DNA of 64,000 nt, from the NCBI GenBank assembly GCA_935421135.1, contig OW285194.1, positions 2,068,501 through 2,132,500 of the forward strand, written 5' to 3'. The notes beneath the pieces were generated by a model, which saw only the letters and a program-made list of their open reading frames with translations, was not told where the DNA came from and made no database searches. The position numbers were made by a program, and so were the translations under genes. Origin of the DNA: Bugulina stolonifera (lineage: Eukaryota; Bryozoa; Gymnolaemata; Cheilostomatida; Bugulidae). Shown piece by piece: positions 11,301-56,000 of the stretch (position 1 is its first letter; each line of letters opens with the position of its first letter).

Positions 11301-11855
11301 CCCTGCTCTCTAATCTGATACTCAACAGTACTATCATGTATGACCTGATGTACAGTGAACAGGGTACTTCTCTCTTTCAACTAACTAACTCTAGAGCATA
11401 GTAATACATGTTATATGATATAACACTAACTGATTGTATAGTAATACATGTTATATGATATAATACTAACTGATTGTATAGTAATACATGTTATATAATA
11501 TAATACTAACTGATTGTATAGTAATACATGATAATATGATATAATACTAACTGATTGTATAGTAATACATGTTATATGATATAATACTAACTGATTGTAT
11601 AGTAATACATGTTATATGATATAATACTAACTGATTGTATAGTAATACATGATATATGATATAATTCTAACTGATTGTATAGTAATAAATGTTATATGAT
11701 ATAATACTAACTCATTGTATAGTAATACATGTTATATGATATAATACTAACTCTCTCTTTGTCTGTCTCACTTTATGTAGAACTAGTTCCCTCTTCGCAG
11801 GTTCCTCTTTCAACACAGTGAGCTCTTCATTCTCCAACCCTACCTCTTCATCAGA
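8353..11855 (-). CDS. CLSPN: claspin C-terminal exons (conserved block)
   Basis: Exon 11752-11855 ends KVRQTKRE, 10946-11119 gives KLLGEYLDKEAELSGDEAGS, and 10573-10691 gives KQRLDDDARELMLMKEMLLP, then DGDLHSD and RKFRWRHVG. Exon 9907-10052 gives LEKERLEREAWLKEQR. This order is that of vertebrate claspin (LRKYLEDEAEVSGSDVGS, YLADGDLHSDG, RKFRWKNIDD, KERIEREQWLRDM). Exon 8669-8824 contains SSRNLLFRPIS, equivalent to vertebrate NSRNFVFHTLS. The last exon adds MWKKTT and TGA. Confidence 0.92.
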
Positions 11856-14800
11856 CTGTAAGTAGACATCAATGGAGGAGTGGTTACCTTACACTCCAAT
11901 CTAACACTTGATGGGAGACTGATTGTAATGATACATTACATAACTGTTAACAATAGAGAGTTATCTGCTCTATATAATCAGTGCTATAAGGGAGAGAAGA
12001 CAACTCTAGAGAGGAAACCAATTAATTAGTAGTTGATGTGATGATAACTGTGATTCATTCATAAATTAAATCAGAACAGGAGACAACTCCAGAACTCCAC
12101 CTAAGCCTAGAGCTAATAATAGTCAGTGTGGAATTACTGACTGCTTTGTTTACAATACGTTACATTGTACTACGTAGGGTGTTAGATACAATCATGTAAT
12201 TAGAGGGGTAATAGCAACCCTAGTTGTATACAGTACAGTTACAGTACAGTTACAGTACAGTCACAGTACAGTTACAGTACAGTCAGAGTACAGTTACAGT
12301 ACAGTTACAGTACAGTCAGAGTACAGTACATTCACAGTACAGTCAGAGTACAGTAACAGTACAGTAACAGTCCCAACAAATAGGCCTTCACTATCTAACA
12401 TGACCTTAGTTCAAATGGTGAATGTCTCTGCTGTATGGAGCACTGATTGGGTTCCACTCAACTACATGTATGTGCATAATATAATAATATACATGTATGT
12501 ATTCTAACAACAACTATGAAATGGGATTTTCCTGTGTTTGATAATAATTTTGCCACTCAATCACTCCTTTAGCACAGCAAGTCCATTCAACACTGTGGGG
12601 CAATCCTGGTTTTTAAACTTTTGTTGATAAAATTTTCAATAAAAAATGTATCAATGCACTGCCATTCAGCCAATCAGCTCTAGTTTACCTCCAACATGTC
12701 TGCACTTGACCAACTCTGATAAGTGATTATTCACGTCAGCTGGGCTTAGTCTAGTCCAACTCAACTGTGTTTGTGTTTTCTCCATTTGACAAATGGATCT
12801 GTGATTGGTCAAATACCCAGATAATAAAGTAACAAGCTCTACGATTGATTACTTACTGTATCAGCTAGCTCATCCAAATCGTCACCTTCCACCTCTCCAT
12901 TCTCTTCCAACTCATCTCCTACAACAATCAGCTCAACACTGATTGGCTAATGGAAGTGCACTTGCTTTCAGTGTACTAGCCATCACTAGTACACTAACTC
13001 ATAGAATAGGATACATTTACCTCTACAGATATCCATTGGATAACTCTATGAGCTCTAACTAGTATTATGAACACAGTTTCTACTTACAGTATGATACAGG
13101 AAACACAGTGATAGCATTAGTTTTATCCAATCAAATTATATATCAGATCAATGTATATATTATAAATACACTGTAAAATAATCTCCAAACTATGTACATG
13201 TATAAAGTATCGTAAACCATGGAGCTAAGGCTAGGACATACCGGAGCTCTCTGATTGGTCAGAATCCTTCTCCTCATCACTAAACTGGAGAGCCTGTTTC
13301 TTCACTGATTTCACTTTAGTCTTAGCCACAGGTTCTACGACTGTATTGGTGTCTTCACATGTGGGAGGGGTGGGGGCTGCAACTGTCTCTGGGGGACTCT
13401 CTAACTTGCTACTGGGGCTACAATAAACGCTATATCTAAATACAAACAACATCCACTTATCAAAAGTACTAAATTACTGTATTGGTAAACGAAATTGGTC
13501 AATTCTCTGTTTACCAGGACATCTGTACTTTTACTCCACTTCTAGGTCTCGTGTTATGATTTATTAAGACAAACACATATTGTCTACGTCTATGCATGTG
13601 TGATTCTTCTATACAACAGAACTCCAATGCACACATAGAGTATGTTGTGTAAACTAGAATAGTGCTTTCCGTTATGGTAAGATAATTTTATATGGTTTAG
13701 CATCTACTTACGTGTAAATATTCTATTCTGTATACCCTGTGATGTTACAATGACTAAACTCAGCTAAATAAATTCAGAATCAACCTTGTGGGGGGAAAAC
13801 ACTTACTCAAACTACAATATGATGATAGTTTGCGATGCAACATAACTTTGGAGTTGTCTTATCGCTGATTGGTGATGTGATATGACGAGACAACTCCCAT
13901 GTACCAGGTGAGCATACTACTACATATAATGGTGACTAGTATCTAGTAACTTACCTCTGAGACTGAGTGGAACCAAACTGTCCTGAACAAAGTCCAACAA
14001 TTTCATCTTCAGCCTGTTGGGTGTTAAACATATCCTGTGTGAACCCTAGCATTCCAGCTCCACCACTGCGTCCACCACTGTCAGTGTACCCTGGTCTCTC
14101 ACTGTCTACACCACTGTCAGCGGGCATGTTGCTACTGAAGGCAAACAGACTGTTGGGGTCCTGAGCGTTGTCATCTAATTGGTCAATTCTTCTGGTAGAA
14201 CTGAACACACAACCAAAAAGATGCAGATTATTAACACACATTAAGCCAGTATACTAGGGGATGCAGGAAAAACTGCCTTTATTGCAAGTGAGAGGATTGG
14301 GATGGTAAGAAAACCAACGGGCATGTGGATTAGTGCAAGGGATGGGGTAGTATAAAGGGTGGATTAGTGCAAGGAGTGGATTTAGTGGAAGGAGTGGGTT
14401 AGTACAAGGAGTGGGTCAATACAAGGGGTGGGTTAGTACAAAGGGTAGATTAGTGCAAGGGGTGGATTAGTGCAAGGGGTAGATCTGTTAGCAGTTCCTT
14501 CATTTCCAACAATTAGTATAACTGTCTGAAGTCAAAGTATAGGCATTCAGCACAACAAAACAGGAATTCTCTTCCCAGCACATGGATGAGTTGTAAATGT
14601 AGTCAGTCTGAAGTCAACTAATAGTCAATGAAAATGGTTTGATGGTCAGAAACACCTGCTTATTGTGTCCGATAAACTTTCCCCACAGTCACAAGTCATC
14701 ACCCAAGTTTTTATTCATGAGATTAAGGAAAATATTAGCGTGTTCAACTTTGGAAAGTTGGTCGCCAATTTACAGTCTCAAAGTGATGACATGACACTTG

Positions 14801-17800
14801 CAGTAGTGATAGGACAGACAACTCACCTTTTGTATTCAGTAGCTGATGTAGGTGCTGGCATCTGATTGGTAGAATCATCAACACCTTGGGTGGTCTCTTC
14901 AGTTATACCATCATCTAGTATTCTGTCTAGACTGCTATGTGTGTGATTGTTTGCTGCAGCCAATAATATGACACAATACATTACAATACATGTAAGGTAA
15001 TTGGAGGAGAAAACACTTATGTGAACATAAACACCATAAGTAACTCTATAGTCTAGACAACTAATTCACCATGGGAGGCAATAATATTCCCTTTATACAT
15101 GTCATAATGTAGCGAATACTTTGCGAATCTTCAAGAAATAGGAGTTGTATCCTCATAATTTTGTAAGTTGTCCGCTCTTACCCCAAACTCAACATATAGC
15201 CGTTTCTTATCACATATTTAGTAACTGTTAATACATGACCATGAAGTGTCACCAGCCAAGCAAAGGACTTGTTATAGTAAAGCATTTCAAGTATGTTAGA
15301 GAGCACACAGGTATATTATATAACTAACCTAAAAGAGAGTTGAAGTGAAGTGTAGACTCTTTAGTAGATGCCTGACTTTCCTCCTCCTCGTCTGAATCTA
15401 GAACTGCTTTTACTCTTCTCTGTCAAACAGAATTACAGCATCCATTATATAACTACTGCATATAACTACTGCATATAACTACTGCATTATATAACTACTG
15501 CATTATATAACTACTGTGTGTAGCTACCAACTAATAGTTACTGACTACTAGCTACTGCATGTAGCTACCAACTAATAGTTACTGACTACTAGCTACTGAC
15601 TACTAGCTACTGACTATTAACTACTGACTACTAGCTACCGACTATTAGCTGCTGACTACTAACTACTGACCACTGACTACTAGCTACCGCATGTAGCTAC
15701 CAACTAATAGTTACTGACTACTAGCTACTGACTACTAGCTACTGACTATTAACTACTGACTACTAGCTACTGACTATTAGCTACTTACTAATAGCTACCG
15801 ACTACTAGCTACTAACTACTAGCTACTGACTACTAGCTATTGACTATTAGCTACTGACTATTAGCTACTAACTACTAGCTACTGACTACCAGTTACTAAC
15901 TAACTACTAGCTAATGACTACTAGCTCTGGGCTATTAGTCACTTACCATTAGTTCAACATCTTGCTCCATTTGAGATTTGCAGATTGATTCTTCATCAGC
16001 GGCTAGCACTGGTCCAATATCATCATCATCATCCTCAGGTTGGGGGCTGACAGACCCCTCCTCATCTTCAGCCTCTTCATCTGAGAACTCATAGTCTTCA
16101 TCTAGTATTTCATCCTCTGCAATGATCTCATTGACTTGACTTGACCATGATAGATTTAGACTGAGGTAACTAGACTTATGACAGAATTGGAAAATGGAAT
16201 CTCTTGAGGCAAAACAGATGAACACAATGCCAGCTACACATGGAGTAAAAATGAAACAATAATTTCATTGGTAAAGGGATATATATATGTGTATAGTCTA
16301 TATGTGTATAGTCTATATGGAGTAATGCACTTGTTTATACACTGCTGAATCTCAGACAAAGTGCTCAATGTTTACAACAGAGCTACCAAATATGTATATA
16401 GTCTATATGTATATAGTCTATATGTGTATATAGTCTATATGTATATAGTCTATTTGTATATAGTCTATATGTATATAGTCTATATGTATATAGTCTATAT
16501 GTATATAGTCTATATGTATATAGTCTATATGTATATAGTCTATATGTATATAGTCTATATGTATATAGTCCATATGTATATAGTCTATATGTATATAGTC
16601 TATATGTATATAGTCTATATGTATATAGACTATACACATATAGACTATATACATATAGACTATATACACATATAGACTATACACATATAGACGATATACA
16701 TATAGACTATATACACATATAGACTATATACATATAGACTATATACACATATTATGTGTATATAGTCTATATGTGTATAGTCTATATGTATATAGTCTAT
16801 ATGCATATAGTCTATATGTGTATAGTCTATATGTGTATATAGTCTATATGTATATAGTCTATATGTATATAGTATATATGTATATAGTCTATATGTATAT
16901 AGTCTATATGTATATAGACTATACACATATAGACTATATACACATATAGACTATACACATATAGACTATATACATATAGACTATATACACATATAGACTA
17001 TATACTATATACATATAGACTATACACATATAGTCTATATGTACTCAATCTGCATACATATAGACTATATACATATAGACTATATACATATAGACTATAT
17101 ACATATAGTCTATATGTATATAGTCTATATGTATATAGTCTATATGTGTATATAGTCTATATGTGTATAGTCTATATGTGTATAGTCTATATGTGTATAT
17201 AGTCTATGTGTATATAGTCTATATGTATATAGTCTATATGTATATAGTCTATATGTATATAGTCTATATGTGTATATAGTCTATATGTGTATAGTCTATA
17301 TGTATATAGTCTATATGTGTATAGTCTATATGTGTATATAGTCTATATGTATATAGTCTATATGTATATAGTCTATATGTATATAGACTATACACATATA
17401 GACTATATACATATAGACTATATGTGTATAGTCTATATGTATATAGTCTATATGTATATAGTATATAGTCTATATGTGTATATAGTCTATATGTATATAG
17501 TCTATATGTATATAGTCTATATGTATATAGTCTATATGTATATAGTCTATATGTATATAGTCTATATGTGTATAGTCTACATGTATATAGTATATATGTA
17601 TATCGTCTATATGTATATAGGGTAATTCCATGGGGACTGATCAAATTTGCGTGCTGGCCCGACTCAGATTCTTTTGAAAATTTGCAGGTAGAAAGAGCAC
17701 CCTTGAATTAGTGGGAGACCACCAATTTTTTTTCTATTTGACCCCTGTGGTTCCGGCAGCAGCTTGTTGAAAAGTGGGAAAATGTGGTGGGGACAACTCC

Positions 17801-20800
17801 AAATTAAATTTTTTGAAATTTTTAAACATTTAAATTATTACTGTGGCCACTGTATGATACTTAGAGCTGTAATTTTTGTTGCATAGATACTTTTATATAT
17901 GTGCTTCAGTTTCATTACTCATTCAAGCCTGTATGATCAACATATTGAGGGTCAGAGGTCACCGAAAACACCTCTCGGAGCTAGTTTGACCCAAATTCAC
18001 TTAAAATCGACCAAATAGACACTGCTGGATCTGATGAAAAAAAGGTTGATATACAATAACTAAGTATTGAAGATGCTCAAAACAAGGATAAATGAATTTT
18101 TGAGAATAAAAAACACTTTCCAGACTAAACAATATGGCAACAGCGGCTCAAATTCAACATGGCTGTCGTCCGAGTTGGCGTTTTGGGGCGTTATTCAAGG
18201 CTAAATCTACTAAACTTAGTAGTGAAAATTAATGGTGAAAATGTTGCTATATATACAATTCACACCTGTAGATTCCATTTCTGCAATAAAAACTTTGTCT
18301 TTTGGGTCTAAAAGGCTGAATTCTCAGACTCAAATTTTACATACATTCGCTATAATATAGTGACTATATCGCCAATGCAGTTAATTGGCTATGGCCATAG
18401 AAGTCAGTCAATACTTAATTTGAGGTACAATTTGCGATTTTGCCTGGTTATAAAACCTTATTGGTGAAGAAAAATCGGTGAAATCCTTTTTAATAGCGCA
18501 AACATGTAGTTTTGGTAACTTTACCATGACTCGTCCTTTCACACGTTTGTTAAATGAGGTAAAATAGCTAATCTAAGCAGTATTTCAAGGTGTGACTTAT
18601 ACCAAGTATTGTTTAGTGAAAAAGAAGGTGAAGAAAGTGATGCTCCATGGAACTAAGGCACCTTTAATCAGTGGGTAAGGCTGAGGAGTTAAAGGTTATT
18701 TAAACTAGCTCAAGACAAATTTTGGGGTCACCATTAGTTATCAAATTCTAATCAAATGCATACATGTACATGTACATGCATAACTATAGCCGCAGGCCTC
18801 GAACGATAACTTTTAACAATTTTTGTATATATTTACATGTAGCTGACAATTAAACCGGTGTTTGCTAATTAGCTCCAAAAATATCTTTTTGGTCCTATAT
18901 AAATGACCACAACTAAGGTAAGTGGTGCGACATGCATTAACCCTTTCGCAGGGACGTTCTTTTGTTGCAAACAGGCCTCCACAGGGAGGTTTATTTAGGG
19001 AAATTATCGATATTCAATATGCCTTTGTTTGAACAACAATAATTTTCACATTTTTCAATAGAATTGCTTGATACTTTCACAGAATATGGAAGGAAGTATA
19101 TAGAATTCAGAAATGGTATTAGTTTTCACCTAGAATAAACTCAACTATTACTAAATGTATCCTGTATAGTCCCTGCTGTATACCAAACTTCAGCTGGCCG
19201 TGAAGCAAGATGAGTGACCGATGACTAATCCCTTAGATAAATAGAAGGACCTCTAAATCCACCATTTGCATGATCACTATTGTTACCTAAATAAATAATG
19301 TTATCTGTAAACTTTTAGAAAACCCAAATAAATGTAAATGTAAATGTATGATTATTATCATTTGATTACGATGATCATTGACATTATCTATGACTGCTAC
19401 TATGACTATCACTATGATTTCAATTTTTGCTATCAGATTCATCACTGCTTTCAAAATTTTCTAGTTCTATATCACATCCTTCACTAACTAACCAAGCATC
19501 ACCACCCATGATACAATCCACAATCCCAAAATCCCTTCTAACTCTTGTTGATCGCCGTGGTAATTCATTTTGACTGGAAGTCGCCATTTCTCAAATGAAA
19601 AAGTCTTCCCGAAGAAGTACTAGAAGAAATAAAGATGAATCCTCCGAATTTATAAGAGTCTAAGTCAGACTATATTATTCAAAATGTTTTCTAGTCATTT
19701 CTCATCATTTATTTGTCAAACCCCTCGAATTCAACCAATAAAACTTGATAATACAAAACGATATCGGAAGCGACATTTATGTCGCTTCCTCTAACTCACA
19801 TTGTGTCGCTCGGCGACATAAATGTCGCTTTCCACGCAAAAGGGTTAACTTTTAATCAACAGAGTAATCAAAAATATGAATATGGTTTTGCATGTGAGAC
19901 TTAGTTTAGTTGTACCTAGCAAGTTAAAATTATATTACAAGTGTTCGCTTGTTTCCAAAGGTAATAATGTTTAATGTACCTGCTAGCATCACCTCGCCAA
20001 ATTTACCATTCCTTATACCGACAACTTGATTTTCAATCGAGATAGTTTTGACCCTTCGAAAGACAAAACCACTATCTGAAAAAAACTATGCTCAATGAAT
20101 AAAAGAAGAGCAGATCTTACCTTTCTAAGTGCAGACAACCATATTGACCTGGCCATAATAATTGTTATACTATGGACTGCTGAAATTCAATCTCTTCTAA
20201 TAAATACTGTACAACACTTATACACCGGAAAAGGAACTATTCACATATCATGAACAAAAAATATTTTTGAACCTAATTAGTAAAGACTGGTTTAATTGTA
20301 AGCTAAATACATGTATATAATTATTATGTAAGTTTGTCACAACTATTGTTTGTGGGCTGTTGCTATAATTTTGCGTGTATATTTTTGATTAGAATCCGAT
20401 AACTAATGGTGACCATAAAAAAATCCCGAGCTAAAACACCACCTCACCCACTGATTAAAGAAGCCTTAGTTCTATGGAGCTTCATCTTCTTCCCCTTCTT
20501 TTTCATTAAACAATACTTGGTTAAGTCTGACCTGGAAATACTGCTTAGATTAGCTATTCTGCCTCATTTAACAAACGTGTGAAAGGAAGAGTAATGGCAA
20601 AGTTAACAAAACTGCATGTTTAGGCTAGTAAAACAGATTTCACCCATTTTTCTTCACAAAGTAGGTTGCATAACCAGGCCAAGTCTCAAATTGCACCTTA
20701 AATTAAGTCTTAACTGACCTTTATGGCCATAGCCAATTAACTGCATTGGCGATATAGTCACTATATTATAGCGAATGTATGTAAAATTTGAATCTGAGAA

Positions 20801-23800
20801 TTCAGCCTTTTAGACCCAAAAAGACAAAGTTTTTATTGCAGAAATGGAATCTACAGGTGTGAATTGTATATATAGCAACATTTTCACCATTAATTTTCAC
20901 TACTAAGTTTAGTAGATTTAGCCTTGAATAACGCCCCAAAACGCCAACTCGGACGATGGCCATGTTGAATTTGAGCCGCTGTCGCCATACAGTTCATTTT
21001 GGAGAGTTTTTTTTGTTCTCAAAAATCCATTTATCCTTGTGTTGAGCACCTCTAATCCTTAGTTATTCTATATCAACCTTCTTTTCATCAAATCCAGCAG
21101 TGTTTATTTGGTCGATTTTCAGTGAATTTGAGTCAAACTAGCTCCGAGAGGTGTTTTCAGTGACCTCTGACCTTCAATATGTTGACCATGCAGGCTTGAA
21201 TGAGTAGTGAAACTGAAGCACGTATATGAAAGTATCTATGTAACAAAAATTACAGCTCTAAGTATCATACAGTGGCCACAGTAATAATTTGAATGTTCAG
21301 GAATTTCAAAAAAGTCTGTTTGGAGTTGTTCCCACCACATTTTCCCACTTTTCAACGAGCTGCTGCGGGAACCAAAGGGGTCAAATAGAAAAAAAATTGG
21401 TGGTTTCCCACTAATTCAAGGGTGCTCTTTCAACCTGCAAATTTTCAAAAGAACCTGAGTCGGGCCAGCACGCAAATTTGATCAGTCCCCATGGAATGGC
21501 CCTATAGTCTATATCTGTAAAATTGATAAGATTATTTGTTGATGGGGATTATAGTTGATTGATAGTCTACTAATAGTAATGTGAGGTCCATCATACAATC
21601 ATAGTAAGTCATGAAACAATACTGCTGTATATGTCTTGCATAGCCTACATGTATACATATACTATACAGTGTAGATATACCTACCTACTAGTTGTATATG
21701 TCTTGCATAGCCTACACGTATACATATACTATACATTGCAGATATACCTACCTACTAGTTGTATATGTCTTCATAGCCTACATGTATACATATACTATAC
21801 AGTGTAGATATACCTACCTACTAGTTGTATATGTCTTGCATAGCCTACATGTATACATATACTATACACTGTAGATATACCTACCTACTAGTTGTATATG
21901 TCTTGCATAGCCTACATGTATACATATACTATACAGTGTAGATATACCTACCTACTAGTTGTATATGTCTTGTATAGCCTACATGTATACATATACTATA
22001 CAGTGTAGATATACCGACCTACTAGTTGTATATGTCTTGCATAGCCTACATGTATACATATACTATAGATTGTAGATATACCTACCTACTAGTTGTATAT
22101 GCCTTGCATAGCCTACATGTATACATATACTATACACTGTAGATATACCTACCTACTAGTTGTATATGTCTTGCATAGCCTACATATATACATATACTAT
22201 ACAGTGTAGATATACCTACCTACTAGTTGTATATGTCTTGCATAGCCTACATGTATACATATACTATACATAGTAGATATACCGACCTACTAGTAGTATA
22301 TGTCTTGCATAGCCTACATGTATACATATACTATACATTGTAGATATACCGACCTACTAGTTGTATATGTCTTGCATAGCCTACATGTATACATATACTA
22401 TACAGTGTAGATATACCTACCTACTAGTTGTATATGTCTTGCATAGCCTACATGTATACATATACTATACATAGTAGATATACCTACCTACTAGTTGTAT
22501 ATGTCTTCATAGCCTACATGTATACATATACTATACATTGTAGATATACCTACCTACTAGTTGTATGTCTTGCATAGCCTACATGTATACATATACTATA
22601 CACTGTAGATATACCTACCTACTAGTTGTATATGTCTTGCATAGCCTACATGTATACAACATATACTATACAGTGTAGATATACCGACCTACTAGTTGTA
22701 TATGTCTTGTATAGCCTACATGTATGCATATACTATACATAGTAGATATACCTACATGTACCTACTAGTTGTATATGTCTTGCATAGCCTACATGTATAC
22801 ATATACTATACATAGTAGATATACCTACCTACTAGTTGTATATGTCTTGCATAGCCTACATGTATACAACATATACTATACAGTGTAGATATACCTACCT
22901 ACTAGTTGTATATGTCTTGCATAGCCTACATGTATACAACATATACTATACAGTGTAGATATACCTACCTACTAGTTGTATATGTCTTGCATAGCCTACA
23001 TGTATATGTATATACACTATACATTGTAGATATACCGACCTGGAAGTTCTTCCTCTAACGCCTCCATTTTCATCATTTCTGTTTTCTTCTTCAACTCTTC
23101 TCCTCTTTTCTCAGCCAGCTTAGCTTTCAGGATTTGCTTGAGTACAGCAAGTTTATGGACTATAAGCAGATTATCAATAGATATACATACATAAGGTACG
23201 TGAAACCCTGCACAGTACACTGTTACCATAGAGTAATATACTATCACAGTATGTAGTGTATGTCAGTAATTACCTCCACCTGTCTCCTCAGCTGCATACA
23301 TAAGGTACGTGAAACCCTACAGAGTACACTGTTACCATAGAGTAATATACTATCACATACATGTAGGTATCACAGTATGTAGTGTATGTCAGCAATTACC
23401 TCCACCTGTCTCCTCAGCTGCATACATAAGGTACGTGAAACCCTGCAGAGTATACTGTTACCATAGAGTAATGTACTATCACATAGGTATCACAGTATGT
23501 AGTGTATGTCAGTAATTACCTCCACCTGTCTCCTCAGCTGTTTTATTACTGTAAGCATCCATACTCAGCTCATGCTGTGAGCCATCAGCAAGCTGTGTTA
23601 CTACTCTACAGAGATATACACAGATTAGTATGCAAGGTGGGAAAACTCCGCATGGCTTGCCATACTATTATATATCCTATCATATATCTGATGCTAAAAC
23701 AGAAAGCATTCCCATGCCTGTGTCTTAGACTGGTAGGAATCCATGTACACATTCAATGCATGCTCTGTTATTCAGCTTGGCTGTAATTAGTCGTGGAGTT

Positions 23801-31695: not shown

Positions 31696-31699
31696 CTGC

Positions 31700-32570: not shown

Positions 32571-32579
32571 AACAATGTG

Positions 32580-33070: not shown

Positions 33071-33080
33071 TATACATGTA

Positions 33081-36832: not shown

Positions 36833-38021
36833 ATGAGTAACAAGAAGGCATTCAATGAGGATGACATTGTGTTTGCCAAGGTTAAAGGGTATCCACCATG
36901 GCCTGCTAAGGTATCATTGTATGTTACTCTGTTATAGACTCTATTCATATAGTAGATTCCTTGTAATTGGGTTGACATAGCCTCTGTCCCAGTTTCCCTA
37001 TTCTCCATTGAATTGGTTCCGCATAATATCCATAGTGTATATATATATTCTCCAACAGAATAAAAACAGAAAATCATATCAGTGTGTATGATGTCTAGAA
37101 TAAATCATGATGTGGCCTGAAGCTAAACTCAGACTTGGTGTTCATGGATCTATTCTCCATCCAAGTTCTACTTAAACCATGAAGTTATAATATTTGGATT
37201 GTTGCTAGGACCATGGTCATGTTGCATTAACTGTCTGTATGTTAGTAGTTACCTACTTTTGTATTATAAACCATGTAGGCTGTATTTTCCTTTGTAGGTT
37301 ATAGCCTCAGGAAAAGGAAAGTATCCAGTATTGTTCTATGGCACTAATGAGAGGTAAGACCACAGTCTATTGCAGTATATAACCTTATACTCGTGATATC
37401 AGTTGATGACTCATGCTGTGTGTTAATATTTAGTGTGTATTGGTCCTTCATCTATTGCATTGTATATGTGGAGAGGGCCCTGTGTTAGAGATACTCAACT
37501 ACCATAAGAATACCAGCCTTCTTGGCTTGTTTGTTCTATTACTAATTTACTACCTAAAACTACTGTCTATTAACTACATGTACATCTCGAGCTGTTTGGC
37601 CTGTTTGACCTATTTTATTCACTGTCCTATAGGATGAAACTAAGGAAACGGTGTGTATAAACAATAAACTATCAATACATCTTTTACTGTTTCCTTTTAT
37701 TATCAATGGTTTGGTTTATGTCAGTTTAAGGATTGCAGCAAGTTTAGATCTCGACTCTCTGTCTGCTTTATATATAAGTCATAGTTCTGTGTTCGTCCTT
37801 TACATCTGGCCACATACCCATAGCAAATGACATATCCTCCGCTGTTTGTTACTCGTTTTAGTGCAAACTGTAAGCCTCAGGACCTATTCGCCTTCACTGA
37901 GTATGAACCTAAGTACGGGAAGGTATCCAAGCCAGCCTTCCTGAAGGCAATGGCAGAGGCTAGGGCTGCATTGGCAGGGGGAGGTAATAGTTCTGGATCC
38001 GGCACTGGAAAGAGAAGCAGA
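36833..38021 (+). CDS. PWWP domain exons 1-3
   Basis: Exon 1 starts ATG with MSNKKAFNEDDIVFAKVKGY and PPWPAK; exon 2 VIASGKGKYPVLFYGTNE; exon 3 ANCKPQDLFAFTEYEPKYGK. The aromatic cage region (PPWP, FYGT) and the DLFAF segment match LEDGF (GYPHWPARV, FFGTHETA, KDLFPY). The phase pattern is 0, 2, 0. The tail of exon 3 is Ala/Gly-rich and basic. Confidence 0.92.
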
Positions 38022-41000: not shown

Positions 41001-44000
41001 ATGATGGTAGCGAAGGAAGTGACGCTGAGTCAGAAGATAAACCATCCAATAAGAAGAAAGATGACTCTGAAAGTGAGGCTGACGATGCTGATAGTATAGA
41101 CGAAAGTAAATCTGCCGCTTCGAGTGAGAGCAAATCAGCAGAAGGTGACTCGGAGGCCAAGGCTAAAGTGAAACCTGCAGCAAAGAAAGGGAGAGCTGCA
41201 GCGCGCAAGCAGCCAGCCACTAAACCTAAGAAGAAACCACCTGTGAAGAGAGGTCGTTCAGCTAAAGCTAAAGTGGTTTCCTCCGAAGATGAAAAGGAGG
41301 CTGGGAAATCAGATGAGGAAGGAAATAAATCAGGTATAGCGGAACATACGCTGGACAATATCTACAGTTACTAGTCAGGCTATACAAGCATGTACTATTC
41401 AGTATATCTGTGTACTGTGTACTTGTTAGGGAACCATGAATTGGCTACTCTAACTCAATGGTGCAGGTTCACCCGCTAGTGCAACCAATCACAGCTTCAG
41501 GCAGTTCACATTGTATCTGTGTATTGAGAATACATCCAATAGACCACCATCATTGTTGTCTGGTTTCTGGTTGATATAAAATTGACCACCTTTCACCTTA
41601 TGAACAGCTGCAGTTACCCATGTTGTGTAAACCACCTGACATCTATCTAACCATTGGGATGACCATCTCGAGGAGACGTCGATGGCAATGTTACCTCCAT
41701 TTACTTGCCTCACTGAATCAGTATCATCCCTGTAATGCCCTGTAGTCTTTGTTCCTAGCCATTATAGTACCATAGCCTCAGTTCTCCGTTCTATACTTGT
41801 AGACAATGAATCTATTAAATCATCTGTCAGCTCCAACTCTAGCTCTTCATCTAGTTCCTCATCATCATCCTCTAGCAGTAAGTCGGGCAGTGACAAGGCT
41901 TCCCACCATTCTAAGATGGAGGATGAGAAGGATGGAGCTGAGGCTAAGAGTACTACAGACACCGCTAAAGTGGATGACCAATCACATGTCAAGGAAGATA
42001 GTAAAGGTACGATTCCCTTTCCTCTGTCAGCTCGTTGTTCCAGTGTAGCAGTGTACTGATGGATTTCTATAATGATAGGATTATGCTTGTACTGCACAGT
42101 GTTTCGGTATCATTCAGTTTTTCAGTTTGCTTTTCTTTTGGTTGAAAAACCGCAAAAACTTGAAATGCAAACCAGTACCGAATGCGGCGGTGAGGTTCAA
42201 TTCAGTTTTAAAATTCAAACCGCGCCTGTCCTCTTGGCTCACTCACCTTCGATCATCGCTGGCATTGAGAACACATGGATTCATGTTATGCTTATTTCAA
42301 TCCTTATAATTCAATGTCATCCTTTGGATCTAGACTTAGTTGCAGCCATAATTTCCACCCAGTGGTTGTTTATTGTAGTTTCACTCAATTCTAGCAGTTA
42401 TGGTTGCATATTATTATAACTAATTAATATTTAATAATCGTTAATTATTAATGAAATGAAAATGACCGCCATTTCTTATGCTTCTTTTAATCCTTATAAT
42501 CCAATGTCATCCTTGGAATACAGACTTAGCTGCAGCCATCATTGTCACCCAGTGAGGGTTTACTGGAGTTTTCACTCAATTCTAGTGGCCAAACTTGCGT
42601 TTTGTTTTAAATAATTAGCACCTGTAATAATTGCGATTTGCTAAAGGAAATTAAGAATGGTCGCCAATACAGTTTAAAAGCAGAGTGTGACAACTTCAAA
42701 CATTGAGTATTCAGTTTCCGGTTCGATTCGGTGTTTTTTCATGAATTTAATAAACTGAATTGAACCGAGGGGTAGAAGACAATTTCGGTATCATTCAGTT
42801 TTGGTGAAAAATCAGTGAAAAGCTGAGTGCACATGCAAATCCAAACCGCCCAGCACTAGAATATGCCCCTGGTACAGTAATGCAGTGTAGTATAGTGTGG
42901 CGTGGTGTTAGTGTGGTGTTAGTGTTGTGTAGTGTTAGTGTTGTGTTAGTGTTAGTGTTGTGTATTGTTAGTACAAGTGTTTGTGTAGTGTAAGTGCAGT
43001 GTACTCTTTCAGAATTCGAGGGGGTACAACCAAAATTATTAACTTAGCAAATTTTTGACAGTCATTTTCAATTACAGACTATCAAGCTATCGACATTCAG
43101 TTTCCAATGCATAAACATGTTGGAGTTAAGCTAATCCAGTGAGAAGTCAATAAAAAATTACAATCTATGAAAGTTATACTGTATATCAGGGATGCCCAAA
43201 CTTTTTGGTGGAAAGGGACAAATTCTAAAATCGCATCAGAGCAAGGGACACTTAGTTTTTTCTGCTGCATTTATTGCGATTATTAAATGGGCAATTTAAT
43301 TATGATACAAAATGAGTTATTTTATAGCTGTAACTCGCGTATTTATTGATTTAGTTTCAACCAAAGTATGACAGCAACAGCCATCGACTTTTGAAGAACA
43401 CGAAAACAGAAGAAAGGTAGAAACAAACTAGCAAATTTTGCGCCGTTATTAGCCTCAAAATGACGGTGAAGCAACAGGGCGTCACAAAATTGAGAGCAAA
43501 ACGCCCTGCTCGCCAAATATCAAGTGTGTTTAATATTTTACGTTTAGCTCTCGATATCACTGACTTCTGATTGGGCAAAATTTTTCCCGGCTCCATTCTA
43601 CACTTTCGTCTGTAAACAAAAATTCTAAGTTGAGTCGTTGTTATAATGTGATGTGCACGTAGGAGACATGACATATACATGTATAGCATTAATTGCCTCC
43701 CTTGGCACACACGCGAAGACTAGAAATCCCTTTCATGGAGAAAACATCGCTAGTGTGTTGTCCAGCGGAAAAAAGTTGTTACGCTGACTAAACGTGGTGA
43801 AATGCGGCAAACATATCCGCTAGTCTGTTTCGGCCTCAAGTAAATTATATGAAAGTTGCAATGAATATTCTATACATGCTACATGATTCACTTGTGAATA
43901 CAATTATTAGTGGGTGACATGGAATTGCCTCTTCTCTTGGATCATCCTCAAAGTCTATGTCTCCTTTAGTAGCTGCCTGGTATGTTTGTCTGCCAGTCTT

Positions 44001-47000
44001 GTCTGATTTTTGTTTTTGATATGCATGTAGTTCAGGTGACTGAACAAACTCACGTAGGCCTACAAGTATGTGCTACTAAAGAGTGTCATCAGTTTGACAG
44101 CGATCTTAGATAAGTTACGGGTGGCTGCACTTTTCACTTTACTCTGTCTTCAGGTCAATCTCAATCAGGCCATCAATTTTTTGTAGGCTTTAAATCATTG
44201 ACAGAAATTTACATCTGTATCATTTAAAAATATTTTGAGATTTTCAAATGTGGGGATTTTTTAACATTGTGATGTATTTTCGGGTGTAACTTGAGCAGTG
44301 CAATTGCTTTCACTGCTCAGCCACAAAAAGACATGTTTGCATGTGAAATTTGAAAAGTGATGAAGGGACACCAAAATCCATGCAAAGGGACACTGTGTCC
44401 CTTAGGGACACATTTGGGCATCCCTGCTGTATATATTACTCGCTTATAATTTAATAAATAAGCATTCTATACCACACTGCATTTACCTGTATTTAGCGGT
44501 TTAAACAACATGTGCACACACAATATTAATCAAATAAAAACAACTTGGCCATAATCAATATCCTTGATTACTAAGTGGTACATTGTTTGTTTGCCACATG
44601 ACACATCACACCACACGCATAGTAAACCATAGCAAATAAACCCAACACTGTCATAATCGCTATCCTTGATTAAACTCAGTTTTACTAAGGGGTACATTGT
44701 TTGCCACTTGACTGCCAAAAGGTACTTAAGCAAAAAAAGGTTGGGAACTCCTGGTATAAGTGGTAGTGTAGTGTATTACTAGTCTACTAATGCAGTGTAG
44801 TATAGTATTAGTAATTATGTGTTAGTACTGTAATGCAGTTTGATATAATGTACTAACATTGTGTACTAGTGTAATAAGTCACTGCAGTGCATGTTTAGCT
44901 GGATGAATGCTGAGTTGAAGAAGGTTTAGATTGCCATCGTTCTTCTACAAAGCTGAAGCAGGATAGTGTGTCTTCTGTATGTATTGTTAGCCAATTCACC
45001 CATCTTATTACCACTACATGGATGTACATGGAAAGCTATTAGTTCACTAGCTACTACTCCATAATATCTACTACTACATGTAGCACTGAGCACACGACTC
45101 CCAATGGTTCAATTTACATGTACGCACTCCTTCCTTATTTAGATAGTAGTATACTGTCAATTTATACTACTACTGCACCTAACAGTATCACACTCTGAAC
45201 TGTGACATAAACTATAAGTGTCAAGTTATGTAAAATTGGTGGACTTGTGTCAAGTGGGAAAATTTATTATAGCATATCATTGCCCAAAAGTTGAAATAAA
45301 TAAGGTTAGCCTGCTCAATTTATTTTGAGAACTCCTTAACTCAAAATACAAATAAACCTAAGGTTATCAAACCTCCCAACAGTGCACCCTCCAACCTAAG
45401 GCTACCAGCTGTACCAACAGGTCACCCTCTGCCCTAAGGCTACCAACCCTACCAACAGTTCACCCTCTGACCTAAGGCTATTAAACATACCAACAGTTTA
45501 CGCTCCCACTACTGACTTCATTGTCTGTTCCTGTCAGCTGTTTCCCTTATGCAGATGCACTACATGTACTACTCTTGCTTTGATGGTTACAGTGACTGAC
45601 CCTGGAGAGGAGAAGGAAGGACAAGTGGAGGAAGCAGATGGTAGTAAAGAGAAAGATGTGGAGCAAACAGATGGTAAATCAGTCGCAGACTCTAAGGAAC
45701 AGGTCACCTCTATACCAGGTTAGTAGACTGGACAATGGCTAACAATTCAATCACTAGATAATGACTGCTCATTCAATCACTAGACACTGGCTCTAACTTA
45801 CATTTACCTCTATGCTCACGCTTAGTTGGTGAATTCATTCCTATCAAAATTTTGAGCTATGAGAGCCACCATTTAGGAATCAGTGAATCAGCACTAGTAG
45901 GCACTAGAGGGAGCCACTAGCAGGCACTAGGGGGAGCCACTAGTAGGAGCTAGGCGGAGCCACTAGTACGGTACTAGGGGGGGGGGGCAGTAGTAGATGC
46001 TAGGGGACCTGGGTACCCTTCATATATTGTGGTTACCAAAGTTGTGTATAAATCAGTGAAGCTGATACAGGGCCTGCTACATGTACAACTGCATAGTAAA
46101 TCTCTCCTATTGACAAGTGACTATAATAGTAGAAAGGCATGTACCTGTTATTTGAACTGTGACAACAAGATAACACACAGTATAATTGTATAATAATAAT
46201 GGTTCAATATTTGTGCTTCAGTACTTGTCCTTTGTCAGCCTAATAGCCATATACAAAAACAACACTAGCACTAGGAGAGCCTATTATTCCTTGTACTGCA
46301 ATACAATGTACTATTTTAGTGTATTATACCAGTACACTGTACTATATATTATACCAATTATTTACTATACATTATACCAGTACACTGGTATTACATTATA
46401 CCAATATACTGTACTACATTATACCAGGACTGATGGCAGGGGCAGATTTTCAACTTTCAGAAAGGGAGGTCTCCTGCCCACCAAGGAAATTTATTGAGGG
46501 TGCGCAGTACCCGAGCTGAGGGCGTGAAGCGCCCGATACCAACAGCTGGGGGGTTTGGGGGGCGCTGTAAGCCCCCCAACGGGGTCCGGGGCGGAGCCCC
46601 GGCCGCTGAAGCTTTTTAGGCTTCATAGAGACCATGTAAACTTGAAACTAAGGACTAAAACATGAAGAGGATCCTTTGTGCTGGGGGATTTCAAGCCTTG
46701 GGGAAACTCTCACTCTTGGACGCTGGAGGCAGAAAGTTATGCCATGAAAAACTAAAAACTGCGCTTGATAGCAATTTATAGATATGATATTAAATAATTT
46801 TTTATACAAAAATTCATACAATTAATAGTAATAACATCAACAATATTGTTTAGGCTGCATTACAAAACAATAAAATGACAACCTAAATGATTATAGTTTT
46901 CAAATAATAAATTAATAAAATGTAAATAATTGTTATTTATATTTTATTAATTTAATATTTTAAAATTATAATAATTTATAGATTATATTTTAAAAAGAGA

Positions 47001-50000
47001 ATCATTGTAAGCAACATTAGGATTAGCATTCATAAGATAATCATAATGTTCATGCTGTTCTGTTGTTAAATAAAAACTAAATTGGAAATTCATATATTCA
47101 TAACTCTGGCTGATAGTTCCTCTTTTCCCCCAATCTGAATCTCGAATCTGGGATCTAAGAAAATTCAAATAATCATAATATAATGAAATATTGAATATTC
47201 GTAACTCTGAGTGATAGTTCCTATTTTCCCCTAATCTAGGAAATTACCCAAGACAAAACAGGAAAAGAGAATTAACTTTGCTAAAATGCAAAGTGGTACA
47301 ATAAACTCTTTCTGGAAAATGTAAAGGTGATATTATTAGAATTATTTTGATTAATTTTTTAAGCAATCACCGATTCATTCAGTGAATTAGCCAAGCAAAC
47401 TTTGTCTGTACAGTAAACAAGAATGTCTACAAGAAGTTTATTGATAGCACAATCAATTGACTTTGCTGATCTACCTGAGAGTTACTTGCAGGAATATGAA
47501 ACTTAAGCTATATTTACTGCGATCCTAATAAGTAACTATGGAAATCATGGCGACCTCCGTAGAAAAACTTTCTAAATGGGAAAATCTTTGAATATGGCCA
47601 AAAATCAATCAATTTCAATTTTTTTTTAGCAAATAAAAGGGGGGTCGCGAGACCCTGGCGACCTACAGTAAATCCGCCCATGACTGATGGTATCCTAGTC
47701 ATGACAGTGTTGCTTACCAGGTTTTACCTCGCTAAGTGAGAACATAACTCTTAGCCCATTCCCTAAGAATGCAGCTGCAGAAAAAGGCATTTATGATTTA
47801 TGCGTCTGCCCGTGCCCCACGGAGGTTTCGGCGACCTGTTTCTGTTGGGCCACAGTCACCAAGAACCATGAGACTGTATTCTGTGCCATCGCATGACCAT
47901 TATATTATGGGTATTTGATAGCATGCTGAAGATGAAATTTGCAATATTTCCTATCAATATTTATTAGAAGTTTTATTTAAATGATAGATTTACAGGTTTG
48001 AGATAAAGTTAGTAGGACCTATTATACCATTTCAATAAAAATGGAATTTGACGCTTGGAATATTATTGACTGAACGGCCTCAGATGTATACGCAATGGAT
48101 CATTAAAGTTTTAAAAATCTTCTGGTGAGATTAGTTTAGACCTGATACAGCTAACCAATAAATGACCTCCGAGATCTCGGTGGAACACTGAGATGATCGG
48201 ATAAATGCACCTCACAATGTTCAGCACAGCGTTCTGCACTTGTGTTGACAGTGTAATTTGTGCAATGTATGATGTTTGAATTGAGGTCATACACGTTTAA
48301 TCTCTCCTTTAGAAGGTGATAAGGTAGAGGAAGCAGAGAAGAAGGAATCAGTGAGTGAGGTGTCGGCATCTGCTACCAACTCATCAGCAGAAGATGATGA
48401 TGTCATCCACTCGTCCAGAGCCCACAAGTCTCACAGTAAGCACACAGTACTCAGTGAGTCAGAGGAGAGTGAGGATGAGGCTAAACCTAAGGTACACAGT
48501 CTATATCGCACTATGTAGGCACTTAGACTATATTATATGTGAGGTATGGAGAGGGGCTTGGTGTTCTTGGTCCGACTTCACTCATGGGTACCGCAATGCA
48601 AGGATGGTCAGACTCCATCCCCCACTAACAAAGTGGATGCTGGTTTTAGAATCTGTCCAAACATGTTCCTTGTAGCAAACGATGCCTTTTACTACTAGCT
48701 AACTCTTCTGCACAGTTCAATTCTGTCTAGATCTTCCCTGCCTGTTTCTGATGCTAATCTCATGAACCCATGTGTTTGTGACATCTGTGTTGGCAGTGGC
48801 TCGATAAATTCTTGCATAAATTGCACTGACACTGAAGGTCGTGAAGATGTCTTTTGGTGTGGTGGACCAAATGTGTGGATTACTTTCTACAGCAGTGACA
48901 CACGACGTTACCTTGTGTCCTATCCATGTTACCCTACAATACTACTGTATGCACTGTCTATGCACCCTGTACTCTATCTCTCTGGTCTGGCAGGAGGAGG
49001 AGAAAGATCTGGAACAGATGCTGGCTGAGCGTAAACAAGAGCACCAGGAACTGAAGCTGAAGAGAAGGCAGGAGAAGATGGAGGAGAGAAGACAGAGACA
49101 ACTTCAGAGGGAAAAGGAACAGGAAGAGGAGAGGAAGGCAAAGGAGGAGAAGAAGAGGCAGCATCAGCAGAGTAAGTAACATATACTGTATTGACAGAGT
49201 AAATAACATTTACTGTTTTTACAGAGTAAGTAATATCTACTGTATTAACAGAGTAAGTAATATCTACTGTATTGACAGAGTAAGTAACATATACTGTATT
49301 GACAGAGTAAGTAACATCTACTGTATTTACAGAGTAAGTAACATCTACTGTATTTACAGAGTAAGTAACATCTACTGTATTTACAGAGTAAGTAACATCT
49401 ACTGTATTTACAGAGTAAGTAATATCTACTGTATTTACAGAGTAAGTAACATCTACTGTATTTACAGAGTAAGTAACATCTACTGTATTTACAGAGTAAG
49501 TAACATCTACTGTATTTACAGAGTAAGTAACATCTACTGTATTTACAGTGTAAGTAATATCTACTGTATTTACAGAGTAAGTAACATCTACTGTATTTAC
49601 AGAGTAAGTAACATCTACTGTATTTACAGAGTAAGTAACATCTACTGTATTTACAGAGTAAGTAACATCTACTGTATTTACAGAGTAAGTAATATCTACC
49701 GTATTTACAGAGTAAGTAACATCTACTGTATTTATAGAGTAAGTATCATCTACTATATTTACAGAGTAAGTATCATCTACTGTATTTACAGAGTAAGTAA
49801 CATCTACTGTATTTACAGAGTAAGTAACATCTACTGTATTTACAGAGTAAGTAACATCTACTGTATTTACAGAGTAAGTAACATCTACTGTATTTACAGA
49901 GTGAGTAACATCTACTGTATTTACAGAGTAAGTAACATCTACTGTATTTACAGAGTAAGTAACATCTACTGTATTTAAAGAGTAAGTAATATCTACTGTG

Positions 50001-53000
50001 TTTACAGAGTAAGTAACATCTACTGTATTTACAGAGTAAGTAACATCTACTGTATTTACAGTGTAAGTAACATCTACTGTATTTACAGAGTAAGTAACAT
50101 CTACTGTATTTACAGAGTGAGTAACATCTACTGTATTTACAGAGTAAGTAACATCTACTGTATTTACAGAGTAAGTAACATCTACTGTATTTAAAGAGTA
50201 AGTAATATCTACTGTGTTTACAGAGTAAGTAACATCTACTGTATTTACAGAGTAAGTAACATCTACTGTATTTACAGTGTAAGTAACATCTACTGTATTT
50301 ACAGAGTAAGTAATATCTACTGTATTTACAGAGTAAGTAACATCTACTGTATTTACAGAGTAAGTAACATCTACTGTATTTGCAGAGTAAGTAACATCTA
50401 CTGTATTTGCAGAGTAAGTAACATCTACTGTATTTACAGTGTAAGTAACATCTACTGTATTTACAGAGTAAGTAACATCTACTGTATTTACAGAGTAAGT
50501 AATATCTACTGTATTTACAGAGTAAGTAATATCTACTGTGTTTACAGAGTAAGTAACATCTACTGTATTTACAGAGTAAGTAATATCTACTGTATTTACA
50601 GAGTAAGTAACATCTACTGTATTTACAGAGTAAGTAACATCTACTGTATTTACAGAGTAAGTAACATCTACTGTATTTACAGAGTAAGTAACATCTACTG
50701 TATTTGCAGAGTAAGTAACATCTACTGTATTTGCAGAGTAAGTAATATCTACTGTGTTTACAGAGTAAGTAACATCTACTGTATTTACAGAGTAAGTAAC
50801 ATCTACTGTATTTACAGTGTAAGTAACATTTACTGTATTTACAGAGTAAGTAACATCTACTGTATTTACAGAGTAAGTAACATCTACTGTATTTAAAGAG
50901 TAAGTAATATCTACTGTATTTACAGAGTAAGTAACATCTACTGTATTTACAGAGTAAGTAACATCTACTGTGTTTACAGAGTAAGTAACATCTACTGTAT
51001 TTACAGAGTAAGTAACATCTACTGTATTTACAGTGTAAGTAACATCTACTGTATTTACAGAGTAAGTAACATCTACTGTATTTACAGAGTAAGTAACATC
51101 TACTGTATTTACAGAGTAAGTAATATCTACCGTATTTACAGAGTAAGTAACATCTACTGTATTTACAGAGTAAGTAACATCTACTGTATTTGCAGAGTAA
51201 GTAACATCTACTGTATTTGCAGAGTAAGTAACATCTACTGTATTTGCAGAGTAAGTAATATCTACTGTGTTTACAGAGTAAGTAACATCTACTGTATTTA
51301 CAGAGTAAGTAACATCTACTGTATTTACAGAGTAAGTAATATCTACTGTATTTACAGAGTAAGTAACATCTATTGTATTTACAGAGTAAGTAACATCTAT
51401 TGTATTTACAGAGTAAGTAACATCTACTGTATTTACAGAGTAAGTAACATCTACTGTATTTACAGAGTAAGTAACATCTACTGTATTTACAGAGTAAGTA
51501 ACATCTACTGTATTTGCAGAGTAAGTAACATCTACTGTATTTGCAGAGTAAGTAATATCTACTGTGTTTACAGAGTAAGTAACATCTACTGTATTTACAG
51601 AGTAAGTAACATATACTGTATTTACAGAGTAAGTAACATTTACTGTTTTACAGAGTAAGTAACATCTACTGTATTTACAGTGTAAGTAACATTTACTGTA
51701 TTTACAGAGTAAGTAACATCTACTGTATTTACAGAGTAAGTAACATCTACTGTATTTAAAGAGTAAGTAATATCTACTGTGTTTACAGAGTAAGTAACAT
51801 CTACTGTATTTACAGAGTAAGTAACATCTACTGTATTTACAGTGTAAGTAACATCTACTGTATTTACAGAGTAAGTAACATCTACTGTATTTACAGAGTA
51901 AGTAACATCTACTGTATTTACAGAGTAAGTAACATCTACTGTATTTACAGAGTAAGTAACATCTACTGTATTTACAGAGTAAGTAACATCTACTGTATTT
52001 ACAGAGTAAGTAACATCTACTGTATTTACAGAGTAAGTAACATCTACTGTATTTACAGAGTAAGTAATATCTACTGTATTTACAGAGTAAGTAACATCTA
52101 CTGTATTGACAGAGTAAGTAATATCTACTGTATTTACAGAGTAAGTAATATCTACTGTATTTACAGAGTAAGTAACATCTACTGTATTTACAGAGTAAGT
52201 AACATCTACTGTATTTACAGAGTAAGTAACATCTACTGTATTTGCAGAGTAAGTAACATCTACTGTATTTGCAGAGTAAGTAATATCTACTGTGTTTACA
52301 GAGTAAGTAACATCTACTGTATTTACAGAGTAAGTAACATCTACTGTATTTACAGAGTAAGTAACATCTACTGTATTTACAGAGTAAGTAACATCTACTG
52401 TATTTACAGAGTAAGTAACATCTACTGTATTTACAGAGTAAGTAACATCTACTGTATTTACAGAGTAAGTAACATCTACTGTATTTACAGAGTAAGTAAC
52501 ATCTACTGTATTTACAGAGTAAGTAACATCTACTGTATTTACAGAGTAAGTAATATCTACTGTATTTACAGAGTAAGTAACATCTACTGTATTGACAGAG
52601 TAAGTAATATCTACTGTATTTACAGAGTAAGTAATATCTACTGTATTTACAGAGTAAGTAACATCTACTGTATTTACAGAGTAAGTAACATCTACTGTAT
52701 TTAAAGAGTAAGTAATATCTACTGTGTTTACAGAGTAAGTAACATCTACTGTATTTACAGAGTAAGTAACATCTACTGTATTTACAGTGTAAGTAACATC
52801 TACTGTATTGACAGAGTAAGTAATATCTACTGTATTTACAGAGTAAGTAATATCTACTGTATTTACTGTGTAAGTACCATCTACTGTATTTACTGTGTTA
52901 GTGTCAGCGTGTAGCATTCCCTGTGTTTACATAAGTACAATGAGAACCAACCACTGGATATGAACACTGTATTCTGTGTCTTCATCAGTATAGGGTGTGA

Positions 53001-56000
53001 CATCTGATGTGTTTCCATCAGTATAGGGTGTGGCATCTGATGTGTTTCCATTCATATCTGTTTACATTGTTGTAGGAGTGAAAACAGAGAAGAAGATTAG
53101 GGAACTAGACGATGTGATTAAAAGGTCTTTAGTTGTCAGTACAAAGGTATGCTAGGTCACATGACTTACTATGGTATGCTAGGTCACATGACTTTCTATG
53201 GTATGCTAGGTCACATGACTTAGTAATAATACTGGCCACTAATCTGCTCTCAAATCCCTCACTCTACGTGAAATAGTATCATTCTTCAGTGATTACATTT
53301 TCTACAGCATAGCGATGAAACCTGGTGTGGATTCCAAGCTACTTGTAGCAGTGAAACCTCAGTATTGACTATGTATTACACTGAGATTGTACACTGTACT
53401 TACTGATATACATGTACATGTTTGGTATTGTACACTGTACTTACTTATACACAAGTACATGTTTGGTATTGTACACTGTACTTACTTATATACAAGTACA
53501 TGTTTGGTATTGTACACTGTACTTACTGATATACATGTACATGTTTGGTATTGTACACTGTACTTACTTATATACAAGTACATGTTTGGTATTGTACACT
53601 GTACTTACTTATACACAAGTACATGTTTGGTATTGTACACTGTACTTACTTATACACAAGTACATGTTTGGTATTGTAGGACGTACAGAAGTGTTTGGAT
53701 GCCATGAAAGAACTGGATGGTCTGGAAATAGTTGCTTCAATGTTAGTCAAGTACCCAGCCATCATTGATACGCTGAAAAAGGTAGTAATCTCCACATGCC
53801 TGTCTGTACTCTGTCTGTATGTAAGAGAGTTCACCTCTAATTACCTGTGCTGAGGTTTCAATACTCTAGTCTTGCTTCTGAAACCTTCAACAAGCCTTAC
53901 TCCAATTTTTGTGTCTGATTAACTCAGATATTTTAACTACTCTTTTAACCTGATCTGTACTTATTACCTGTACTTAGTACCTGTGCCTGTACTAGTCATA
54001 CCTGTACTTAGTACCTGTACTTACTACCTGTACTTACTACCTGTACTTACTACCTGTACTTAGTACCTGTACCTGTACTAGTCATATCTGTACTTGGTAC
54101 CTGTACTTAGTACCTGTACTTAGTACCTGTACTTAGTACCTGTACCTGTACTATTCCTACCTGTACTTAGTACCTGTACTTGGTACATGTGCCTGTACTA
54201 GTCATTTGTTACGTGGAGCATGCTGAAATGTGTTTACTGTCTCTCAAGGACTGCCATCACCAGTAATGTATCACTAGTAACTTGTCTCCAGAATCTACAG
54301 TATTCGGACTATGTTACTTTACACCAGCACCCATAATACTGACAAATGGTTATTGTTATTGTTTGGTTTCAGTGTAGGAAATACAAGGCAGACAGTAAAG
54401 TGATGACCCAAGCAGACTGTCTCTGTAATAAACTTAGAACTATAGCTAGCAGTGACAAGTCTGCTCTCTCAGCCCTCACTAAACACAAGTCTGATAAGCA
54501 GAAGGACAGAAAGTCAGTAGCTCCCCCTGGTGGGGAGAAAGTAGAGGTCAAAGAAGCGGAACCCTCAGTACCTTCTATTAGTAAAGGTTAGTCCAACATC
54601 TCACTCACACAGTTGACTTCTGTTGAATGACAGACTTCAACACCCTGGAGGCAATTCACAAAGCCGTAGTCTGTTCCCCCATTACTACCTAGGCCATACT
54701 ATGCTGTTCCTGTCATGTGGGTACTGCTAATGTCTCCTGAGTGTCATGTCACCCCATGTCCAGGCGTGATGTCATTCATAAATGCTGTCTATGCGATGGG
54801 CCTATTATTAGGGCATAGTATTTGAACCTAATATCCTGTTACGACATTGGTTAGATAGTAGAGTTATATTGTACGTCATTGGTTAGATATTTTGGTTATA
54901 TTGGAACTAATACCATGCCACCTCACCATACCAAATTAACAATATCTACTGCCTGGGTTAGATCGTCATGTATCTCTTCAACTCTGCCACCCATGTCCAC
55001 TAGGCATTGAAAATCACCTTTCAAATGACATTGCTGAGTTGTCTCCACTCAGTACTATTATTGGGCACATGGATGGTCTTGGGACAATACTGACAGAGCT
55101 TCGAGTCTTATCTTTGTCTCATGTTCCATGCCTATGTAGCTCATTACAATAGGGTTTGAGCAGGTGATATCCACAAGGCCTGTGCGAGGTCACCGAATGC
55201 CCATAATTCAGAGATTTCTGTTCAATTGACTATAATATGAGTTGGCCTGTCCCATTAATTTGTATTATATTATTTACAGAGCTGTCAACTGAGACCTCAA
55301 CCAATGAAAGTGGAGCTAACAAATCCGCAGCAGACACTGTAGACTCAGCAGATAAACAGACGAGTCGAGGAGAGGGTGATTCCTCCCAACCAATCAAATC
55401 ATCAGAGCATGCTGATAAACCTGTGACACTAGAGGCTAGTGATGATATGGACATTGATAATGATGGCATGTCAGACCAGGTGGCTGCACCTCCAGCCACT
55501 GCAGGTGATGATGTCACACAGACCTCCCTAGTAGATAATAAAGAGAATACATCAGAACCCCTTATAGCAGACTCTACTCTCTCACCCTCTGCGGCCGCCA
55601 CTGTTATATCAGAAACTCCTAGCCAATCTGTTGACACCATTACCCAATCAAATGATAGCACAGAACATGTCAGCCAATCATCTGATGATAAAAATATCGA
55701 TAGCCAGGCACAGGAAGACGTGTCTGGTAAAGATGACTCTAAACCCGTAGTGATTGGTTCCGTTAGTGACTTGAAAGTAATGGCTAAGGACGAGTTACCA
55801 TCAGAAGACGTGTTAACGGCCGGCATCCAGGCTCTCATCGCCAAGACACAGGAATCCAGCGCCTTCTTGGATCGAGTAATCAAACAGAAAAAGGTGAGTG
55901 ACCATTTCTGCACTGAATATTTTTAAAATGAGTGTATTGGATTTCATAGTACAAAGTGAGCGAATGAATATCATTTAGTTTCCATAGACTGTCAATATTG

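Follow-up and report, generated by a model that had tools for sequence, protein, structure and literature searches.

Minisatellite-like tandem duplications of exon/intron boundaries were named 'mirages' in the amphioxus globin paper, according to which Adh3 has units of 10-72 bp and the globin genes BflGb6 and BflGb9, where both boundaries are duplicated, have units of about 150-160 bp (PMC3087553). A further report added PGBD5 to the amphioxus mirages and named Adh and TnC (PMC3902484). In these accounts, AG/GT is present in many, not all, of the copies (PMC3087553, PMC3902484); splicing is described as undisturbed and array length as unstable, and intron gain from mirages has been proposed (PMC3087553).

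The arrays described here, from the cheilostome bryozoan Bugulina stolonifera, resemble amphioxus mirages in that a repeat unit spans the exon/intron boundary and splice signals recur in many copies. The exon joins are uninterrupted in the orthologous bryozoan proteins. The bryozoan arrays differ in belonging to another phylum, in one array of 138 copies and in their clear copies, which in our window are at 5′ boundaries only, whereas the amphioxus cases, as far as they are set out in those reports, include both ends. The best reading is that the bryozoan arrays are of the amphioxus mirage kind, with Bryozoa as a new phylum for it, which would extend mirage minisatellites from lancelets to bryozoans. 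The first-pass annotation of this locus knew of no genome with such systematic donor-anchored arrays; the amphioxus mirages are a precedent.

A minisatellite in a human interferon-induced transcript (from a 1995 article in NAR; the gene being presumably 6-16/G1P3/IFI6) reportedly gives rise to multiple splice donors. It shares repeated splice donors with the bryozoan arrays and differs, in so far as the article describes it, in being a single-gene case. In the tandem-duplication model of intron gain, associated with potato RdRp, the duplication is said to supply both ends of the new intron. Intron gain by tandem genomic duplication has been described for the potato gene (PMC4974935), and the bryozoan arrays likewise combine tandem duplication with splice-site sequence; in contrast, a comparison of seven bryozoan introns showed no relation between their two ends. 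We found no report of bryozoan boundary minisatellites in a literature search that hardly combined bryozoans with minisatellites, and the terms 'tandem repeat', 'satellite' and 'intron' are absent from the main text of the Flustra genome paper.

Arrays at the 5′ splice sites of a divergent gene pair

The window, a 64,000-nt stretch of chromosome 8 (C8:2068501-2132500) of the B. stolonifera assembly (27 contigs, 234,951,659 bases), carries two divergent genes, claspin on the minus strand (8669..31695) and a LEDGF/HDGFRP2-type gene, encoding a PWWP plus LEDGF-domain protein, on the plus strand (36833..57547). Both were modelled with a gene finder trained on the B. stolonifera genome alone, from which the array positions were withheld at prediction; for claspin, the extent given covers the better-supported exons of a longer model. 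Relatives of both proteins are encoded on one 66,617,907-base contig of the bryozoan Watersipora subatra, the LEDGF-type protein being 51% identical and claspin 53% identical over the part searched. The part that aligns with the orthologue runs from 29666 to 8666 for claspin and from 36833 to 55893 for the LEDGF-type gene. A separate claspin search gave only bird and lizard claspins among the matches listed. Downstream of claspin, 2-61 and 1929-2039 hold additional, incomplete copies of coding pieces that resemble claspin.

The first-pass annotation had placed tandem arrays at the donors of eight exons of these genes. Seven of its exon ends (31288, 28766, 15947, 11752, 39200, 49171 and 53146) coincide with those of the gene finder, which predicted 23023 in place of 23040. 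Alignment to the Watersipora proteins backs six of the eight, through the claspin joins 28766 to 28328, 23040 to 16116, 15947 to 15419 and 11752 to 11119 and the LEDGF-type joins 49171 to 53076 and 53146 to 53680. It also backs the claspin joins 26101 to 23605 and 23520 to 23159, whose donors carry arrays beyond the eight named earlier. At these eight supported joins, with split codons read by eye, no residues are inserted relative to the Watersipora orthologues; exon ends 31288 and 39200 fall where the proteins do not align.

All eight arrays exist, and their copy numbers, given before as 2 to about 138, were measured as 2.3 to 138. Six begin at the donor itself, with 0-10 exon nucleotides matching the next unit, whereas those after 15947 and 39200 start, according to TRF, 20 and 10 nt into the intron. 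On the claspin (minus) strand, the 28-bp array at 31288 (31107..31297, 6.8 copies) has a unit that holds GATGACAG/GTGGGTG and matches 10 exon bases, while the 20-bp array at 28766 (28729..28774, 2.3 copies) has a unit that holds GTTAAGAG/GTCAGTG and matches nine. The 67-bp array at 23040 (21626..23041, 20.9 copies) matches no exon base, and the 40-bp array at 11752 (11398..11752, 8.9 copies) matches two. On the LEDGF-type (plus) strand, a 27-bp array of 138 copies at 49171 (49168..52902) makes up 96% of a 3904-nt intron, its units ending in ACAG/A/GTAAGT and matching four exon bases, and the 27-bp array at 53146 (53146..53222, 2.9 copies) matches three. The 27-bp units of 49168-52902 thus place an acceptor-like ACAG one base ahead of the donor GTAAGT, and ACAGAGTAAGT occurs 107 times.

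The donor hexamer, proposed to lie in most units, is exact in most of the followed copies of five arrays (5/6 at 31288, 1/1 at 28766, 7/8 at 11752, 134/139 at 49171 and 2/2 at 53146), whereas at 23040 the GT is kept in all four followed copies and the exact hexamer in none. The intron after 15947 is filled by 14- and 16-bp arrays (15443..15926, minus strand) that start at +20, and the 14/28-bp array after 39200 (39211..39637, plus strand) starts 10 nt into the intron as a 28-bp row or 52 nt as a 14-bp row; neither copies the donor hexamer, as 0 copies could be followed in either. These two introns have in common a 14-bp unit, GTAGTCAGTAGCTA, at 15521-15926 in claspin and 39253-39637 in the LEDGF-type gene, on the sense strand of each gene as judged by eye. 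The earlier argument that differing units mark independent events does not hold for this identical pair.

The two further donor arrays also lie in claspin, on the minus strand. A 33-bp array of 36.8 copies (24878..26091) starts at +9 of donor 26101 and does not copy it. A 126-bp array of 2.4 copies (23242..23540) lies across donor 23520, and 21 nt of exon end together with the donor are repeated twice more in it; these copies are plain by eye and were missed by the automatic count, whose period search was too narrow. From the copies of exon tail and donor at 23242-23540, the gene finder predicts 18-nt in-frame micro-exons (AEETGG), and the copies could be used in this way; the motif is single in the Watersipora protein. 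Across the ten window introns, the array share ranges from 8 to 96%.

Array starts at donors and acceptors beyond the window

For comparison with the window, we used 27 of 180 planned random 10-kb stretches, 20 of them on C1 (all that were planned there) and seven on other chromosomes, C8 not included, each of the seven being the one nearest its chromosome start. One stretch (L029; 5,000 N, GC-rich and rDNA-like in look) was removed, leaving 26. Exons were counted at a coding score of at least 6 and an array cover of at most 35%, a limit that may hide edges far upstream, and expectations were taken from the intron-interior rate. The window donor 23023 was reset to 23040 as the orthologue indicates, and the donor at 2978 of L011 was removed by hand; its exon looks ClpP-like, and to judge from the ClpP sequence the true donor presumably lies upstream of the array. 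As these two sites illustrate, donor-like sequence inside arrays can mislead the gene finder.

In the sampled stretches, seven array starts fall at -15..+9 of 113 donors, against 1.58 expected (P=0.0012), and two at 119 acceptors, against 1.99 expected. These P values are optimistic, because the seven cases are clustered in four of 31 gene models and are not independent. In the window, there are seven starts at 42 donors (0.78 expected) and one at 42 acceptors (0.91 expected), while eight PWWP loci gave none at 26 donors (0.35 expected) or 27 acceptors (0.34 expected). Window and sample together thus have 14 starts at 155 donors and three at 161 acceptors, the latter at expectation and at borders as predicted by the gene finder. 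Compared directly, donors and acceptors differ with P=0.07 in the sampled stretches and P=0.03 in the window (Fisher). With the score raised to at least 8, five starts remain at 101 sampled donors against 1.43 expected (P=0.015), and the donor-acceptor difference has P=0.20. The donor excess of array starts is moderate, and the window is a selected extreme.

An acetyl-CoA synthetase gene (L020) accounts for three of the seven sampled cases and a RAD17 gene (L035) for two. The donor is copied in four (that of L010 and the three of L020) and not copied in three (that of L028 and both of L035). Alignments to solved proteins continue across both RAD17 joins and across the L020 join at 4865; at the L020 join at 4326, two other entries match across by their table coordinates, with a length difference of two residues, and the join at 3461 lies in a weak stretch (11.7 bits). 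The L010 and L028 donors are gene-finder calls. The non-copying arrays start at +5 (L028), +6 (L035, 3191), +9 (claspin 26101) and 0 (L035, 683). Among the 17 donor cases examined, six have no followed copy that keeps the GT, one of which, 23520, copies its donor by eye. A repeat unit spanning the boundary, with 9-21 exon nucleotides copied together with the donor, is found at 31288, 28766, 23520 and 9622 of L010; the other donor-edge arrays share 0-6 exon nucleotides.

We also asked how often sequence at donors recurs, here with L011, L029 and the 23023 donor included, as in the coverage and other-array counts below. Of 169 donor-spanning 16-mers, 10 (5.9%) are found again in the next 200 bp downstream, compared with 97 of 1249 random intronic 16-mers (7.8%), 9 of 506 exonic ones, 4 of 174 at acceptors (searched upstream) and 266 of 687 intronic donor-like decoys. 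Sequence at donors is repeated no more often than sequence anywhere else in introns. The 79 intronic arrays away from donors have no sense-strand bias of donor motifs (seven sense and 14 antisense at a score of at least 4) and no 5′ position bias (25/48 outside the window, 16/31 inside). Beyond 100 bp, the intronic array coverage is 0.13 overall and 0.09 outside the window. This coverage levels off within some 60 bp at donors and only by about 200 bp at acceptors; the acceptor side, with its slow climb over that distance, behaves as a passive wall.

Origin of the donor-edge arrays

We consider the donor arrays to be, probably, mirage-type minisatellites, i.e., tolerated tandem duplications that need no special trigger. 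Tandem duplications of tens of bp would arise throughout a repeat-rich genome, and if such a duplication crosses or adjoins a 5′ splice site, an intact donor would remain at the exon in the first copy while the extra copies fall in the intron. Since these extra copies are intronic, the mRNA would be unchanged and the array free to expand, its growth being neutral if the first donor is the one used. Duplications over a 3′ splice site would be purged, because they would displace or double the branch point, pyrimidine tract and first AG. Drift and homogenisation would change the intronic copies, whereas coding would hold the exon copy constant, and the visible edge would thus recede and settle at the border. 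Tolerance at donors combined with purging at acceptors would constitute an asymmetry pointing to one route of intron lengthening.

Tolerated duplication is favoured by the exon tails of 9-21 nt copied at 31288, 28766, 23520 and L010 9622, by the orthologous proteins without inserted residues at the supported joins, by array starts that are donor-rich relative to acceptors with coverage that rises faster at donors, by the other intronic arrays, which lack donor motif and position bias, and by the like anatomy reported with regular splicing in amphioxus. Over the wider interval -60..+9, the sampled stretches have seven starts against 4.42 expected under tolerated spanning (P=0.16), so that donor-touching arrays are near what full tolerance of spanning would allow, 4.42 being an expectation for units of at least 60 bp; the median period is 19, and the true expectation is therefore lower. 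Nevertheless, this reading is weakened by the sampled edges, all seven of which sit at -15..+9, sharper than uniform spanning predicts, by the several arrays that share only 0-4 exon bases, in which a spanning origin is invisible, and by the three of seven sampled cases (L028 and both of L035) that copy no donor.

The edges are sharp enough to allow for a special trigger, and donor-seeded duplication, in which the tandem duplication starts from the 5′ splice site or from R-loops or nicks at it, is possible, if unlikely. The first-pass annotation had suggested such seeding, and the clustering of starts at -15..+9 of donors (7 against 1.58 in the sample and 7 against 0.78 in the window) speaks for it, as does the -10..-1 bin, where the rate before hand corrections is 7.7 times that of the intron interior for all data and 4.7 times for the data outside the window, with acceptors at expectation. 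Nevertheless, our results do not support it: the donor junction recurs downstream no oftener than random intronic sequence, the 79 other intronic arrays lack a sense-strand donor motif or 5′ position bias, the independent events are few (4/31 gene models), and the donor-acceptor P values are 0.07 and 0.20 at scores of at least 6 and 8. The more specific version, in which transcription or splicing at 5′ splice sites actively provokes tandem duplication, through an R-loop, nick or stalled fork there, with introns growing at the 5′ end and donors marked by array starts genome-wide, is quite unlikely. RNA-seq data (ERR10123683) and an alternate haplotype (GCA_935421085.1) appear among the deposited data listed for B. 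stolonifera, which makes donor seeding directly testable, to the extent that the listing describes them. It is likewise unlikely that the arrays were born within introns and simply halted at exons, the donor being the 5′ wall. Introns are indeed array-rich, at the coverage given above, and the arrays of L028, L035 3191, 26101 and L035 683 start at or just past the donor without copying it; however, several arrays copy donors and exon tails, the acceptor wall has no pile-up, and coverage rises faster near donors than near acceptors.

That extra donors, or paired acceptor-donor sites, are kept for a function, aiding U1 recruitment or the stepwise (recursive) removal of long introns, seems very unlikely. 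The 27-bp unit does pair ACAG with GTAAGT (107 occurrences of ACAGAGTAAGT) and keeps the donor hexamer in 134 of 139 copies, but recent homogenisation explains this retention equally, every step at ACAG/A/GT would add one base, and six of the 17 donor cases lack a followed GT-keeping copy (23520, among them, copying the donor by eye). That the introns were born when a coding segment with AGGT was tandemly duplicated, with the arrays as remnants, is highly improbable; exon tails and AG/GT are repeated in some introns, which speaks for it, but we rejected it on comparing donor and acceptor 30-mers, which are identical at only 6-12 of 30 positions in seven introns, so that in those seven the 3′ end does not derive from copying of the 5′ end.

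Two further features of the repeats were observed. In the window and sampled loci, the trinucleotides GTA/TAC occur in array units at 2.06 times their frequency in unmasked sequence. Additionally, a satellite of ~390 bp occupies 1-10000 of L032 and 1-7349 of L034, and is 97% alike across these two chromosomes.
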